64,000 nucleotides of DNA. Origin: Cenarchaeum symbiosum A. Lineage in GTDB: Archaea > Thermoproteota > Nitrososphaeria > Nitrososphaerales > Nitrosopumilaceae. This document shows positions 42,234 through 55,154 of the stretch, piece after piece (the first letter of the stretch is position 1; each line of letters opens with the position of its first letter). The stretch covers positions 1,414,009-1,478,008 of the forward strand of contig DP000238.1 of assembly GCA_000200715.1 (NCBI GenBank). The letters run 5' to 3'. The notes beneath the pieces are model-generated. The model made no database searches. It saw nothing but the letters and a program-made list of their open reading frames with translations, and was not told the DNA's origin. Position numbers and translations under genes: made by a program.

Positions 42234-42533
42234 CTATTGGCCGAGTATGATGAACATCATCACTATCCCATAGATGGCGATCGACTCCACCATGCCGATG
42301 AAGATGAACACCTTGGACTGGAGTGCCGGATTCTCGCTGATCACTGCAAGGCCTGCGGATCCCACATAGCCCAGCCCGATCCCCGCGCCGCCTGCAGCCA
42401 GGCCAAACGCAAGGCCCGCCCCCAGCAGCTTGTCGCCGCCGGAGCCCTCGCCCTGCGCGTACGCCAGCTCGACAGAACCGGCCGTCAGGAAAGCTCCCGA
42501 TGCGGCCAGCAACAGAATCATAACTGTTTTCAT
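42234..42533 (-). CDS. atpK: A-type ATP synthase subunit K (proteolipid ring)
   Basis: Membrane rotor subunit. A signal-peptide-like N-terminus (MKTVMILLLAASGAFLTAGS) is followed by two transmembrane helices: GLAFGLAAGGAGIGLGYVGS and SKVFIFIGMVESIAIYGIVM, the second holding the ion-binding Glu (MVESIAIYG). It is 99 residues long, one hairpin. It is the last gene of the E-A-B-D-small ORF-K block and lies 50 bases after the small ORF. Confidence 0.93.
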   Translation of the reverse strand: MKTVMILLLAASGAFLTAGSVELAYAQGEGSGGDKLLGAGLAFGLAAGGAGIGLGYVGSAGLAVISENPALQSKVFIFIGMVESIAIYGIVMMFIILGQ

Positions 42534-42582: not shown

Positions 42583-42714
42583 TCATACTCTGTCCATCGC
42601 CTTTCCCTTGAACTTTTGCAGGTCCGCCCGCACAGAATCTGCAAGCTCGTCGTGCTCGCGCCCGAGGGCCTCCTCTGATTCTTTGATCATCCGCTCTATG
42701 CCCTCCCGCACCAT
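42583..42714 (-). CDS. Small charged helical protein coupled to atpD, 43 aa
   Basis: Encodes MVREGIERMIKESEEALGRE followed by HDELADSVRADLQKFKGKAM and DRV, a single charged helix. Its ATG overlaps the atpD stop (TAATG), so it is translationally coupled and sits between atpD and atpK. Length and charge recall a fragment of peripheral-stalk subunit H or G, but no firm homology can be claimed. A genuine ATP-synthase accessory subunit is the likely reading. Confidence 0.6.
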   Translation of the reverse strand: MVREGIERMIKESEEALGREHDELADSVRADLQKFKGKAMDRV

Positions 42715-43347
42715 TATTTCTTCCTCTCCATTGCCGCCTTGACCTTCTTTAGCTTTGCAAACTCCTCCCTCTCCCTCTCCTCGAGGGTGGACAGTATGAA
42801 CTTGATCCGCTGCTGGTACTGGGGTATTATTATATTCTCGAGAGCGTTGAGCAGCTTTTGCGTCTTTTCAAGCGCCTTTGCAAGGCTGAATATGGAATTC
42901 TCGTACTCGGCCGCCTTGCATATGCCGGGGAGCAGCTCCTTGATCTGCTTTGCCGCCCTGTCTATCGACGAGTTGGTGTCGGCAAGGCCGTACGGCATGC
43001 CGCCGCCCCCTTTTTCCGAGACGGAGAGCGCCGGGATCTTTACGTCCACCACCCTCTTGATCTTTACATCCACCTCCATGACCGCGGGCGCCGAGCGCGC
43101 GACAGAATCGACAGTGGCCGTCCCCAGCGCCAGGTACGCCTCCCTTACCGCCCCGTAGATGTCCTGGAGCGGGTCCCAGATGCCGCCCCCTGGCCTTTGA
43201 CGCCTCGTCTATCATCTCCTCGATGTTCTTTAGCAATACCTTGCGCTTGTCGTCTAGGATCTTTTGGACCATCGCGGCCACCTGGCTTGAGCGCTTGTAC
43301 TTTAGCAGCTCGATCTTTGTGGCCGCCACATTCTGACCAAACGACAT
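42714..43347 (-). CDS. atpD: A-type ATP synthase subunit D, apparent +1 frameshift
   Basis: Central-stalk subunit. The N-terminal part (MSFGQNVAATKIELLKYKRS, up to MIDEASKAR) is in one frame. The rest (GIWDPLQDIYGAVREAYLAL onward to AAMERKK) is in another. The frames join if one base is removed from the run of five Cs at 43186-43190 (plus strand), restoring ARGGIWDP and a 210-residue protein of normal size. Because the enzyme is essential and the rest is perfectly conserved-looking, a sequencing error or a programmed shift is more likely than a dead gene. The start directly follows the atpB stop. Confidence 0.85.
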
Positions 43348-44736
43348 CTAGGCACTTCCCTTGTAGAATTTTTCCACATACTTGTCCTTTACCTTGGTAA
43401 GCTCGTTCTTTGGCAGCCCCGAGACTGTATCCCACATTATCCCGAGCGTCTCCTCGATGGTCCTGTTCTCGTCTGTCGCCTGTGTGAGCAGCCTCTGTTC
43501 TAGTGAATCGCCCACGCCCATGTACCTAAGATCTATATCAGTCAGGCCCGCCTTGCCCACTATCCCGGCAAGCGCCCTGACCTCCTGGGCGCGCGAATAC
43601 GCGTCATAATTCTGGTTGGAGATCTCCTGGTGGTCCTCCCTTGTGCGGCCCTCGCCTATGCCGTCCTTCATCAGCCTGCTCAGGCTCATCAGTATGTTGA
43701 CCGGCGGGTAGACCCCCTGCCTGAACAGGTCCCTTCCCAGCACGACCTGCCCCTCTGTAATGTACCCTGTAAGGTCCGGTATCGGGTGGGTGATATCATC
43801 AGAAGGCATCGTAAGTATGGGCACCTGCGTGACGCTCCCCTTTCTGCCCACCAGCCTGCCTGCCCTCTCGTATATTGTCGACAGGTCGGTATACAGGTAT
43901 CCGGGATAGCCCTTTCTGCCTGGGACCTCTTCTCTTGCCGCGCTGATCTCCCGGAGAGCCTCTGCATAGTTGGTCATATCAGTGAGTATTACCAGGACAT
44001 GCATTCCAAGATCGAATGCCAGGTATTCTGCAACAGTCAGGGCGACACGCGGCGTGATGATCCTCTCGATGGCGGGATCGTTTGCCAGGTTGAGGAACAG
44101 GACGCTCCTCTTTAGGGCGCCCGATTCCTCCAGGCTCCTCCTAAAGTATTCCGCCTCGCTGTACTGGACGCCGATGGCCGCAAAGACCACCGCAAAGTCG
44201 TCCCCCGTCCCGACCACCGATGCCTGCCGCGCTATCTGGGCGGCCAGTATGTTGTGCGACATGCCGGATCCTGAGAATATCGGGAGCTTCTGCCCGCGGA
44301 CAAGCGTCATTATCCCGTCGATAGCCGAGACGCCGGTCTGGATAAAGTCCTTGGGGTACTCGCGCTGCTCGGGGTTCATGGCCTCGCCGTTTATGTCAAT
44401 GAACTTGTCGGCTATCGGGTCCGGCAGCTTGTCCTTTGGCCTGCCGAGCCCGTCGAATATCCTGCCCAGCACCTCCCGGGACACTGGCATCTCCATCACC
44501 TTGCCTACAAACCTCGCGTTTGTGCCGGCCACTGATAAGCCGGTTGTTCCCTCGAAGACCTGCACGATGGCCTTGCCGTTTCCTATCTCGAGCACCTTGC
44601 CGAGGCGCCTGCCGCCTTCGTTGGTCTCTATCTCGACGAGCTCGTCGAATGCGGCATTCTCCACGCCGTCGACTATTACCAGCGGGCCCTTGATCTCAGC
44701 TATCCTGCTGTACTGGACTCCCCCTTCGACGGTCAA
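43348..44736 (-). CDS. atpB: A-type ATP synthase subunit B
   Basis: Non-catalytic nucleotide-binding subunit, 462 residues. The degenerate P-loop [20 protein letters not shown] lacks the Walker lysine, as is normal for B. Other family segments: [38 protein letters not shown], and [20 protein letters not shown]. It overlaps the atpA end by four bases and abuts atpD, all in one operon. Confidence 0.97.
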
Positions 44737-46511
44737 CTCGCCACCTTGACCCCCGTTATGCCCTTGTACTGCTCGTCCATGGCGCCCGCCAGCTCATCGA
44801 GCTTTGGCATCTCGTCGTCCTTGATATCCATCTTGGCCTTGAGCAGGCCCGATATGACCGGCATTGCGCGTATGTCGGCAAGCTCCGCGCCCTCCTTGAG
44901 CGCCTGCTGGCCGCGCTTGTAAAAGTCCACCTGCATCTTGAGCAGCTTGTACTGTTTCTCCGGGCTGCAGTATGTGTCAACATCGTCAAAAGAGTTCTGC
45001 TGGAGCAGCCCTATCTTCATCATCCTGGCAACCTCCAGTATGAGCTTCTCCTCGTCGGGAAGGGCCTCGGGCCCGAGCAGGCGGACTATCTCCTTTAGGG
45101 TGTCCTCCCTTTGGAGTATCCCGTACGCCTCGCTGCGCGTATCAAGCCAGTCCTTGCTGACGTTCTCGCCCCACCACTTTGCTATGTCAGCCAGATAGCC
45201 GGAATAGCTGTTCATCCAGTTTATCGACGGATAGTGCCTGGAATATGCGAGCTTTGCGTCTAGCGCCCAGAACGTCTTGATGAACCTCATGGTATGCGTG
45301 GTGACAGGCTCCGTAAAGTCCCCGCCAGACGGCGAGACGGCGCCCACCAGTGTGACCGAGCCGTTTCTCTCGGGCGACCCAAGTGCGCGCACCCTGCCTG
45401 CCCTCTCGTAGAACTCGGCCAGCCTTGATGCAAGATACGACGGATAGCCCTCTTCTGCGGGCATCTCTTCGAGGCGCCCGCTCATCTCCCGGAGCGCTTC
45501 TGCCCACCGGCTGGTCGAATCCGCCACCAGTACTACATCCTTGCCCATGTCGCGGTAATATTCCGCTATTGTAACACCGGTGTATATGCTGGCCTCCCTT
45601 GCGGCGACCGGCATGTTGCTGGTGTTGGCGACAAGGACGGTCCTGTCCATCAATGGCTTGTCGGTGCGGGGATCCTTTAGATGCGGGAACTCTACTAGCA
45701 CCTCGGTCATCTCGTTGCCCCGCTCGCCGCAGCCAATGTAGACCACCACCTGCGAGTCGGCCCACTTTGCTATCTGGTGCAGGGTGACAGTCTTGCCGGT
45801 GCCAAAGCCGCCGGGTATCGATCCCGTCCCTCCTTTTGCAATGGGAAAGAACGTATCTATCACGCGCTGGCCCGTGATCAGCGGGACTGTCGGGTCGTAC
45901 TTTGTATGGTATGAACGCGGCTGCCTTACAGGCCACCTGTGGTACATCTTGAGCGGGATGGTCTTGCCGTCTTTCTCTATGCCGGCCATCTCCGTCTCCA
46001 AATCGTATTCGCCCTCGGATACGATGCTCTTTATCTTGCCGCCCGCGTGATCCGGCGGAACCATTATGCTGTGGTCTATGAGGTCGGTCTCCTTGACCGT
46101 GCCGATTACCGTTCCAGGTATGACATCATCGCCCACCGAGACTGAAGGCACAAAGTGGTACTTTTTTGTCATGTCGACCGGGCTGGTGGTTATGCCCCTG
46201 CCGATAAACGAGCCGGACTTTTTGGAGAGCTCCTTCAGGGGCCGCTGTATCCCATCGTATATCTGGCCTATGATGCCCGGCCCCAGCAGAACGCTCAGCG
46301 GGTTTCCCGTCCCCTCGACGGGCTCGCCCGGCTTGAGGCCGCTAGTCGATTCGTACACCTGTATGAATGCCACGTCGCCGGTGAGCCGGATGACCTCACC
46401 TATCAGCCTCGCCTCGCCGACAGTTACAGTCTCGTACATCTTGGCCTCGGACATGCCGTCGGCCTTGACGGCAGGACCGCTGACCCAGACAATCTTTCCC
46501 CGTGCCGTCAT
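44733..46511 (-). CDS. atpA: A-type ATP synthase catalytic subunit A
   Basis: Catalytic subunit, 592 residues. Walker A is [20 protein letters not shown]; the non-homologous insert typical of A subunits lies around residues 110-200; [20 protein letters not shown] carries the Walker B/arginine-region signature. It has no intein. It begins one base after the atpE stop and overlaps atpB by four bases. Confidence 0.98.
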
Positions 46512-46512
46512 C

Positions 46513-47112
46513 TCAAATACCTATACCGAATTTGGAGACGATCTCCTTCCTAATTAAAGGCTTCATGCGGTCGAAACGGGCGTCGATCGTGTTGTCCAGC
46601 GTCATGCTGCCGTCCTTTGAGCTGACCTTGACCCCCCCGAGGCACTCGATGGGCTCCTGTGCCAGCTCCGCCCCGGGAAATCCCCCGAGCGATGCCTGGA
46701 CTACGTCCTTGTCCCGGCTGCCCGCGCGGACTACAACCTGTGTCGTGCCCAGCGTGGCCGTGGCCTCCCCGATGAGCGATTTTATCATATCAGGATACCC
46801 CGGGCCCCTCTCGGCAGAGATGCTGGCAAGCACCTTCTCTAGGACCCGGTCTATGGCCGTCTCCAGCAGCAGGATCTGCTTGTTTCTGGCCTCAAGGTCC
46901 GCACTGCCCACTATCTTCCGGTGTATCTTGTCTGCCTCCTTTCTGCCCTCTTCGACTATCCGGTCGTACTCGCGCTCGAGCGTCTTGGCGGATCCCGCCA
47001 GAGCCTCGGCTGCCTCCTTCCGGGACTCCCCCAGCCCCGAGAGGATCTCCTCTCCTGTCCTGTCCAGTATCTTGTCAACGGCGGCCTCCAGCCGGGGATC
47101 GGGTGGCATCAT
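46513..47112 (-). CDS. atpE: A-type ATP synthase subunit E
   Basis: Peripheral-stalk subunit, 199 residues, with the long N-terminal helix expected ([20 protein letters not shown], then [20 protein letters not shown]) and a mixed C-terminal domain ([20 protein letters not shown]). The frame opens at 47130, but the ATG at 47112 fits the TATA-like CATTAAAATCC (minus strand, about 47131-47141). It is the first gene of the block. Subunit F is not found in this window. Confidence 0.9.
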
Positions 47113-47398
47113 CTGCCGCCCGCCAGCCAATGGATTTTAATGTTTTGAAGAAAAACCGGCGCGCCGCGGGGCCGGCTGGTGCGGGATTACCGGCAGTATG
47201 TCGGAAAGTGCAGCTGGAGAAGGTCGGGAATGTCATAATCGGGCCCCGGGGGACGGCCGGATGCCGCCTTGGAGGCACCTTCCGGCCGGGCAGGGTTTGC
47301 CCCATGACAAACCGCCCAAGGACACACAGGTATGGAGACACGGAGGACATCATGCCCGATCAAAAAAGCATATAAGCATATGAATCAGCGCCCAAACC

Positions 47399-48106: not shown

Positions 48107-48512
48107 TCAATCTAGGTTGATCCGCTTCTGATTCTGTAGAGTCATGCCCGTCTTTGTATCCCTGCTTCCGGCTGCCCAACCCTTGAAACGTCCGTCCCGG
48201 CTTGTCCCCCGGGCACCCGCTCGGGCCCTACGAGCCCTGCCCGCCCCGCCTCAATCTCAAACTCCAAGGCCTTTTTTTCGCCTGCACAGAACCCTCCGGC
48301 CTCCCGATATACGGCCCCCGGGGAGACCGGTCCCGTCCCGGGAAGGCCGGTCCGGCACCCCGCAGGCGTCAAAAAGTTTGGGAGAGAATTCGTCGCCGGG
48401 TACACTGCTGAATAAGCCACTTCTTAACACTGTATACGGGTAGATCAGTTTGTCCTGGAAGAGCCCCGTGCCGGGAAAGATTTTAAACTCACAATCTGCG
48501 GGGCGCAGTATC
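48107..48512. other. Intergenic stretch before atpI, no gene seen
   Basis: Pro/Arg-rich spurious frames only. The 3' part holds the atpI promoter (GATTTTAAACTC, about 48480-48491). Confidence 0.5.
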
Positions 48513-50606
48513 TTGGTAGTGGCCGATCTCATGCTGGGGACCGTTATACTGCCGCGGTCCGACTCTCCCAGGGCGATCTCGCGGCTGGCCGAGTTCGACT
48601 GGTTCCACAAGGTGGACGCAGAGAACGAGACCGTGACGCCGGAGATAGACGACCTGCTGCTCAGGGCCCAGAAGGTCTTCCAGTCGGTTGACGACGTGGT
48701 CAAGGGCCTCGGGATCCCGCCGCGCGTGGGCATACTGGAGATCCTCTTCAAGGGGACGATGTTCAAGAAAAAAGAGTACGAGCTCGACGAGGTGGCCAGG
48801 ATGGTCGCCGATATAGAGGGCGAGGCGCATGTTACAATAGACGAGATAGCGAGGCTGCTGGCCGAGATCGAAGAGGTGGAAAAGTCGCTCGAGGAGCACC
48901 GCACCCTCACGGACGCCCTGCGGGTTATCCGCGGGCTGGACGTGGATCTCGGGAGCTTTGGCCCCATGAAGAGGTTCTTTGGCGACATATTTCTCGTCGG
49001 CTCGGCGGACTATCCGGAGGTTGAGAGGTCTCTCGAGGGGAGCGCGATGTACAGGTACGAGCTGGACTCCAAGGATACCGTCGCGGTGGCGGTCTTTGCC
49101 GATGCGCGCGATACCGACGACATACTCAGGGTGATGAGGGCAGTCAACGCCAGCTCGTTTACCATACCCGCCGGATTCTCCCAGGTGCCCAGCAAGGCGT
49201 TTGAGGCGGCAGAGGCAGCCATCAAGAAGCTGGAGTCAAGGCAGGCGGCCTTGAAGAAGCGGCTTGCTGCAATGACCAAAAAGATCAGGGGCAGGGTGCT
49301 CACCGTCCACGAGAGGGCCATGGTTGCAAAGGACGTGCTCGAATCACTGCGCAAGCCCGGCGGCACAAGGAGGTTCGCCGTTATACAGGGGTACATACCG
49401 CGCAATCTTGAGGGCAAGTTCAAGGAGACGACAGGCGAGTGGATGAGCATCGTAGAGGACCTGCCCGGGGAAGAGGAGAAAAAGGCGCCCACGCTGTTTA
49501 GGAATCCCAGATTTGTAAGGACATTCGAGGTGATAACAGAAAGCCAGGGCATACCCAAAAAGGGCGAGCTTGATCCGACCCCGATGATAGCCCTCATGTG
49601 GCCGATATTCTACGGGATAATGTTCGCCGATGTCGGGCACGGCCTGCTGCTGATGGGAATGGGGCTGCTCTTCAAGCTAAAGGGCCAGGGAAACCTGGCA
49701 CGCTGGGGAATGCTGATTGCCATATCGGGCGCTGCAGCATCGATAGCAGGCGTGGGATCCGGCGAGGCGTTTGGATTCCACATAGACCACCTGGAGCCCT
49801 TTGAGTCGCTGCTCGAGGAAGGCGGCATACTGCACCCCGTATCGTGGCTGGTGGGCGTGATGAGCGTGGCCGAGCTCAACTTTGAGCAGGTGATAAACAT
49901 CCTCAAGGTCTCGCTGTTCATAGGGATACTGCACCTGCTGGCGGCTATGCTGCTCAGGGTAAGGAGGCTCTACAAGGAGGGCAAGAAGCTGGTAATGTAC
50001 ATGGAGGCAATCCCCAACATCACCCTCTACCTCGGGATAGTGGCCATCATGATGTGCGCGATAGGCTCGGGATACGACGTGATCAACATGTACTCGAAAA
50101 TCCACACGGAGCCGGTCCCCTGGGTGACCATATTCCTGGGCGACTGGGCGCAGGTGTGGATAATCACAAGAATATCCATCTCGGTGGTCATAGCCTCTGT
50201 TGTGATAATGATAATCGGCGGCATGAAGCACGCAAGGGCCCACCCGGAGGAGGGGGCCGATCCTGCCAGCGTCGTAATGGAGACGCTGCTGGGCAAGACC
50301 ATAGAGGCGCTGGCGCACACGATAAGCTATGCAAGAATAGGGATAATGCTGCTGGTGCATGCGGCGCTGCTGCTTACAGTCAACAACGCGTTCAAGTCGC
50401 TCGGCGGAATAGAATCCCCGGGTGCGCTCGCCCTGATAATTGGCGGCAACTTGGGCATAATGATGATCGAGGGGCTCATTGTATACATACAGTCGCTCAG
50501 GCTCCACCTCTACGAGTATTTCACAAAATGGTACGACGGCGGGAACCAGCCGTTTAGAAAGCTGCTCCCCGAGATAGTCTACAACGCGGTCAGCTGGAAG
50601 CGCTGA
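48513..50606 (+). CDS. atpI: A-type ATP synthase subunit I
   Basis: Stator membrane subunit that forms the ion half-channels, about 700 residues. The soluble N-terminal half holds coiled coils (for example DEIARLLAEIEEVEKSLEEH) and the membrane half about seven to eight helices, including MWPIFYGIMFADVGHGLLLM and the channel helix ALAHTISYARIGIMLLVHAA with its conserved Arg. The frame opens at 48450. A TATA-like box at 48480-48491 favours TTG 48513; GTG 48519 and ATG 48531 are alternatives. It is on the strand opposite the E-A-B-D-K block. Confidence 0.95.
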   Translation: MVVADLMLGTVILPRSDSPRAISRLAEFDWFHKVDAENETVTPEIDDLLLRAQKVFQSVDDVVKGLGIPPRVGILEILFKGTMFKKKEYELDEVARMVADIEGEAHVTIDEIARLLAEIEEVEKSLEEHRTLTDALRVIRGLDVDLGSFGPMKRFFGDIFLVGSADYPEVERSLEGSAMYRYELDSKDTVAVAVFADARDTDDILRVMRAVNASSFTIPAGFSQVPSKAFEAAEAAIKKLESRQAALKKRLAAMTKKIRGRVLTVHERAMVAKDVLESLRKPGGTRRFAVIQGYIPRNLEGKFKETTGEWMSIVEDLPGEEEKKAPTLFRNPRFVRTFEVITESQGIPKKGELDPTPMIALMWPIFYGIMFADVGHGLLLMGMGLLFKLKGQGNLARWGMLIAISGAAASIAGVGSGEAFGFHIDHLEPFESLLEEGGILHPVSWLVGVMSVAELNFEQVINILKVSLFIGILHLLAAMLLRVRRLYKEGKKLVMYMEAIPNITLYLGIVAIMMCAIGSGYDVINMYSKIHTEPVPWVTIFLGDWAQVWIITRISISVVIASVVIMIIGGMKHARAHPEEGADPASVVMETLLGKTIEALAHTISYARIGIMLLVHAALLLTVNNAFKSLGGIESPGALALIIGGNLGIMMIEGLIVYIQSLRLHLYEYFTKWYDGGNQPFRKLLPEIVYNAVSWKR

Positions 50607-54113: not shown

Positions 54114-55154
54114 ATGGCTTCCGGCTCCCAGAAGGTCTACGCATCTGTAAAGTCGTTCAGCCAGAGGGGCAAGCTGCTCTCGAGGGACGACCTCCAGACG
54201 CTAGCAGAATCCAGGAACCTCGACGAGCTGCTCACCCGGATAAAGAACACCTCGTATTCCGACGCGGTATCGGACGTGCCAAAGCCGCTTACCGCCGAGG
54301 GGATAGAGGCGGTCCTGATGGCGCACCTGGCCGACGTGCATTATTCGATAGCAAAGACTGCCGGAAACAAGGTGCTCGAGGCCTACTTTTTGCGGTTCAT
54401 GGCGCGCAACCTAAAGGTGATACTAAAGGGCAAGATCCTGGGCAGGCCGCAGGACGAGATAGAAGCAGGGGTCAACATGCATGCAGAGGAGCTTATCCGG
54501 CAGCGGGACGTGATACTCAAGGCGCTGATGTCCAAGGACCTTGGCGAGGCCGCATCGAGCCTCGGGGGGACTGTCTTTGGAGAGGATGCCGCAAAGGCCG
54601 TCGCGTTATACAACGAGACAGAGAACCTCCAGGTGATGGACACATACTTTGACAAGGCCCTGGCAAGGCAGCTCGGGCGCGCGCTGCAGCTGGCGGGCGA
54701 CAGGGATCTTTCGGGGCCCGTCACAATGGACATAGACTTTTACAACCTGCTCAGCGTGCTCCGGGGAAAGTTCTGGGGGCTCGGGGAGCAGCAGGTGATG
54801 GACCTGATGGATACATACTCGCCGAGCGCCCCGAGGGAGATGCTCGCGCGCATGGCGGCAGCCGGAACCCTGAAGGACGCCTTTGCTGAGCTGCAGGGCA
54901 CGCGCTACCGGGACCTGGCCCCCAAGGCAGAAGACGGCATAGGGGCAATCACCGAGTTTGAGCGCTCGTTCGAGATGATGATGTACAGGGGCGCGCTGTC
55001 GAGCTTTACGAGGATGTTCAGCTCTGGAACTAGCGTCGGCATAACAAAGCTTACCGCGTACGAGATAAGGAACATGGCCGCGATAGCGTTTGCAGTCGAG
55101 CATGGAATACCCGTCGAGACAACCATGTCCAAGCTGGTCGTCGAGGCGGAATGA
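54114..55154 (+). CDS. atpC: A-type ATP synthase subunit C
   Basis: Socket between the central stalk and the K ring, 346 residues, almost all helical. Family-typical segments: KVLEAYFLRFMARNLKVILK, YFDKALARQLGRALQLAGDR, and FYNLLSVLRGKFWGL. It is separated from the main ATP synthase block by more than 11 kb. Its stop overlaps the next small membrane gene as ATGA, so the two are co-translated. Confidence 0.92.
   Translation: MASGSQKVYASVKSFSQRGKLLSRDDLQTLAESRNLDELLTRIKNTSYSDAVSDVPKPLTAEGIEAVLMAHLADVHYSIAKTAGNKVLEAYFLRFMARNLKVILKGKILGRPQDEIEAGVNMHAEELIRQRDVILKALMSKDLGEAASSLGGTVFGEDAAKAVALYNETENLQVMDTYFDKALARQLGRALQLAGDRDLSGPVTMDIDFYNLLSVLRGKFWGLGEQQVMDLMDTYSPSAPREMLARMAAAGTLKDAFAELQGTRYRDLAPKAEDGIGAITEFERSFEMMMYRGALSSFTRMFSSGTSVGITKLTAYEIRNMAAIAFAVEHGIPVETTMSKLVVEAE

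Follow-up and report, generated by a model that had tools for sequence, protein, structure and literature searches.

The atpD locus and the other ATP synthase genes

The window analysed here, a 64-kb stretch of the Cenarchaeum symbiosum A genome, carries on its minus strand an A-type ATP synthase subunit D gene (atpD) that, by direct reading, spans 634 bases (3n+1) and lies in two reading frames (Table 1). Frame 0, from the ATG at 43347, is AtpD-like through residue 53 (...DEASKAR) and then runs through 106 residues unrelated to AtpD before a stop, for a total of 159 aa. The +1 frame starts GGIWDPLQDIY..., and the junction of the two frames is the GGGGG run, read from 43190 down to 43186. When the frames are rejoined, the product is a 210-aa protein that matches Pfam ATP-synt_D (PF01813) over profile positions 1-196 of 196 with 171.3 bits (E 2.8e-50), exceeding the curated cut-off of 25.7 bits; the downstream part alone scores 137.7 bits. 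The first-pass annotation had described atpD as split by a one-base shift within this five-base run, with two minus-strand frames that together make a full-length, normal subunit D, and both descriptions hold.

Table 1. Features of the atpD locus, the other ATP synthase genes and the further genes with frame jumps. Coordinates are window positions unless a sampled stretch (L number) is named.
Feature	Position	Strand	Basis or remark
atpD, A-type ATP synthase subunit D, two frames	42714..43347	-	reading frames, Pfam, relatives
atpD upstream part, frame 0, residues 1-53 (MSFGQ...ASKAR)	43189..43347	-	NCBIfam subunit D models match residues 5-52 and 5-54
Five-G run, frame jumps by +1	43186..43190	-	sequence; relatives' DNA compared
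atpD downstream part, +1 frame, 157 residues before stop	42714..43187	-	first ATG/GTG/TTG at 43079
atpB, intact, just upstream of atpD	43348..44736	-	open frame, Pfam match
atpA, intact	44733..46511	-	open frame, Pfam match
Subunit E, intact	46513..47130	-	open frame, Pfam match
Subunit K (c-type ring protein), intact	42234..42533	-	open frame, Pfam match
Subunit I (V_ATPase_I), intact	48450..50606	+	open frame, Pfam match
Subunit C (vATP-synt_AC39 match), open frame	54165..55121	+	genome 1468173-1469129 converted to window coordinates
RIO kinase, topoisomerase VI-B, conserved 169-aa protein	L199:2549, 4181, 6541 (genome ~732549, 734181, 736541)		frame jumps within 4 kb
CofC (CofC-like guanylyltransferase), frame jump	L204:9600	-	census
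DsbA-like thioredoxin gene, frame jump	L064:9499	+	census

The position of the jump is supported by comparison with relatives, whose query matches (117 in number) place it at the same atpD site and thereby exclude chance; in the best match the indel is +1. A one-base change at the homopolymer accounts for the jump. We examined 130 loci of relatives, and in the 120 that gave 102 distinct proteins atpD is a single open frame in 102 of 102. The other ten lack a match at E 1e-30; they hold distant homologues of subunit D (65-81 bits), taken to be another ATPase type. At the shift site the relatives' DNA mostly reads AGR-GGN-GGN or CGN-GGN-GGN, and in one of them (L110), whose atpD is intact, the site holds five G in phase.

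We further note that subunits A, B, E, K and I have open frames with Pfam matches and that the subunit C gene is also intact, which bears out the earlier remark that the remaining ATP synthase genes look undamaged. The source genome is a single contig of 2,045,086 bases, rated 99.91% complete. Across these 2.05 Mb there is a single PF01813 gene, the 85-base stretch around the five-G run occurs once, and a genome-wide search for a second intact atpD copy found none.

Frame jumps in other conserved genes

Frame jumps were counted by tblastn in a sample of 864 kb of this genome (42%), made up of the window and 40 spaced stretches, against ORFs from 800 kb of relative G003, 400 kb each of G001 (same genus) and G017, and the 130 atp-gene loci. 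An automatic rule called a candidate where both pieces had at least 28 bits and at least 35% identity and the indel was no more than 8 and not a multiple of 3. Relative to conserved sense places, this rule gave 10/331 candidates here, against 3/448 in G003, 0/168 in G001 and 2/275 in G017. The candidates were then sorted by eye, with the sorting not blind, and removal of rRNA, antisense and gene-junction cases left 6/331 jumps here versus 1/891 in the three relatives treated alike (1/448, 0/168 and 0/275; Fisher p 0.002), or 2/891 in the controls if one G003 candidate left uncounted without inspection (L184:16913, a 28-residue N-terminal match) is included. Leaving atpD out, the comparison is five jumps versus one (p 0.007); three of the jumps lie in one 4-kb stretch and are not independent, and counted as four regions versus one they give p 0.02. 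Jumps like that of atpD elsewhere in the same assembly thus occur at a rate exceeding that of comparable genomes. A first census, on about half the sample and with fewer references, had found one jump in 148 queries and none in 111 in the reverse direction.

The 4-kb stretch (L199) holds the jumps in the RIO kinase, topoisomerase VI-B and the conserved 169-residue protein, the last of which has no Pfam match. Each of the three has one base too many; by reading of the alignments they sit, as in atpD, at homopolymers (G, A and G), and the stretch is probably a poorly finished part of the assembly. With atpD, CofC and the DsbA-like thioredoxin gene they make up the six. The RIO kinase split is also seen independently, in that the only strong RIO1 match in a whole-genome Pfam search is split. 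Topoisomerase VI-B is single-copy in this genome.

Several candidates did not survive sorting. Those dropped from this genome were L063:19026, which is 23S rRNA, L070:12962, where an antisense-like frame joins neighbouring genes, and two in the window, namely 43183 on the plus strand, which is the antisense of atpD itself, and 41735 on the minus strand, where an ORF antisense to the adjacent plus-strand gene is joined to the next gene. Among control candidates, L177 and L241 were dropped as rRNA and L236 as an antisense frame. Further candidates from this genome in a looser listing (L052, L055, two more in L070, L196 and the minus-strand position 43360 of the window) failed the automatic rule.

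Two single events stand beside these counts. A fibronectin-type-III repeat protein at L064:1019 has a probable frame jump that failed the automatic rule and lies outside the six. The sole counted control event is a one-base frame jump in an MFS transporter of G003 (L087:19577).

Origin of the frame jump

The first-pass annotation had left the choice between a sequence error, a strain-specific defect and a translational frameshift. The error is favoured, because further core genes in this assembly have one-base slips too, at a rate above that of three relatives; the frameshift lacks a supporting signal, and a true defect is implausible unless it sits in one clone or cell, since this is the sole subunit D gene of a nearly complete genome. 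We therefore consider that the jump is most probably a one-base error left over from sequencing or cloning in the deposited C. symbiosum A sequence. Under this interpretation, the living organism would have a normal, functional atpD, and the deposited sequence would hold one surplus G in the homopolymer, five versus the four implied by the conserved protein. That G, presumably missing from the organism's own DNA, would have arisen in cloning, sequencing or consensus calling. The C. symbiosum genome was reportedly sequenced from sponge-derived fosmids. Fosmid libraries of planktonic archaea and of the sponge host are described in one paper (PMC7838436).

The open atpD frame in all scored relatives and the coding bias kept downstream of the jump speak for an error too. 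The other affected genes point the same way. With topoisomerase VI-B single-copy and the only strong RIO1 match split, it is unlikely that several core genes are all dead, and core genes that are one base over or short and otherwise sound have the look of residual sequence errors. Two observations qualify this. Runs of at least five G abound in this genome and almost never do harm (392 lie inside homologous spans of intact ORFs), so a five-G run alone is no predictor of error. The census also found no second frame jump elsewhere in the 64-kb window, so the stretch is not visibly poor, which counts against an error.

Rejoined AtpD resembles archaeal A-type subunit D (PF01813; TIGR00309) over the full profile, except that the deposited frame breaks off after residue 53. 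In the GeneTack survey (PMC3711429), singleton frame jumps are expected to be indel mutations or sequencing errors. Like those singletons, atpD is a lone jump in a conserved gene with full-length homologues of the rejoined product, and no scored relative shares it; no difference from the singleton transitions of that survey was found. Among titles and listings of literature on C. symbiosum, no paper was recognised as treating this atpD, and the word symbiosum is absent from the available part of an ATPase-operon paper (PMC6863869). In practical terms, residual one-base slips seem to be present in core genes of this assembly, at the frequency found among the sampled conserved places, and conserved genes that are missing or truncated in it should not be taken as biology until reads are checked.

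A real one-base insertion in the source cell or subpopulation of the clone, as a lethal or dying lineage or as a polymorphism in a composite genome, with other cells keeping an intact atpD, is the next most probable reading, though an unlikely one, and has some points in its favour. Homopolymers are mutational hot spots too, and the organism is, by inference, an uncultivated symbiont of a sponge, Axinella mexicana in the case of Cenarchaeum symbiosum A. Chromosomal variation in a natural population of the symbiont is reportedly the subject of a 1998 study by Schleper. Against such an insertion, the essential subunit is in single copy, atpD carries no other decay, and comparable slips found in several further core genes would call for several damaging mutations in the sequenced cells. 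We also considered atpD as a pseudogene and set this aside, as the downstream part does not show relaxed constraint. Its GC by codon position is 0.57/0.37/0.80, so that the coding bias is kept, and the ratio of C-part to N-part identity is 0.888, versus 0.892 (0.76/0.852) in the intact same-genus gene. This ratio is low among relatives (3 of 89 are lower), and its match to the same-genus gene suggests that the extra divergence belongs to the genus rather than to the lesion.

Recoding is far less probable still. At AGG-GGG-C, full-length AtpD could be produced by +1 ribosomal frameshifting, whether programmed or adventitious, or by slippage of the transcript, as both frames are open around the five-G run and joining them gives back exactly the conserved motif KARGGIWDPLQDIY. 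However, no relative needs a shift and the shift site is not conserved among orthologues. The site has no rare codon (in this genome AGG accounts for 37% of Arg codons and GGG for 29% of Gly codons) and no nearby stop, with frame 0 open over the 105 codons that follow the run. Among nested folds, the structure predicted for the RNA is no more stable than those of shuffled sequences (z +0.85; 160 of 200 shuffles are equal or better), and in eight other conserved ORFs the reading frame continues unshifted through an AGG-GGG-C in the same phase inside a homologous span. Just one archaeal programmed frameshift, of the -1 type, is reported in the abstract of a review (PMC8211752), namely that of the Saccharolobus solfataricus alpha-L-fucosidase. 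As described there, that case is like atpD in that the gene is archaeal, lies in two frames at a homopolymer and is full-length in most relatives. It differs in that atpD involves a +1 jump at five G, common codons, no special RNA structure, a housekeeping gene and an assembly with other slips. More doubtful again is the reading in which the organism truly has five G and AtpD is made by a +1 shift of its ribosomes at AGG-GGG-C; shifting would be needed also in topoisomerase VI-B and the RIO kinase. Were this so, the lineage would tolerate single-base slips in its core genes and would provide the first archaeal +1 recoding; if real, the slips would indicate an unusual frame tolerance in an archaeon.

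Finally, a genuinely split subunit D, made as two pieces from two ORFs, is scarcely credible: the downstream ORF of 121 aa does have its own ATG at 43079, but it is without residues 54-89 of rejoined AtpD, the +1 frame between the shift and 43079 offers no ATG, GTG or TTG, the upstream ORF carries the 106 extra unrelated residues, and in subunit D the N- and C-terminal helices form a hairpin.
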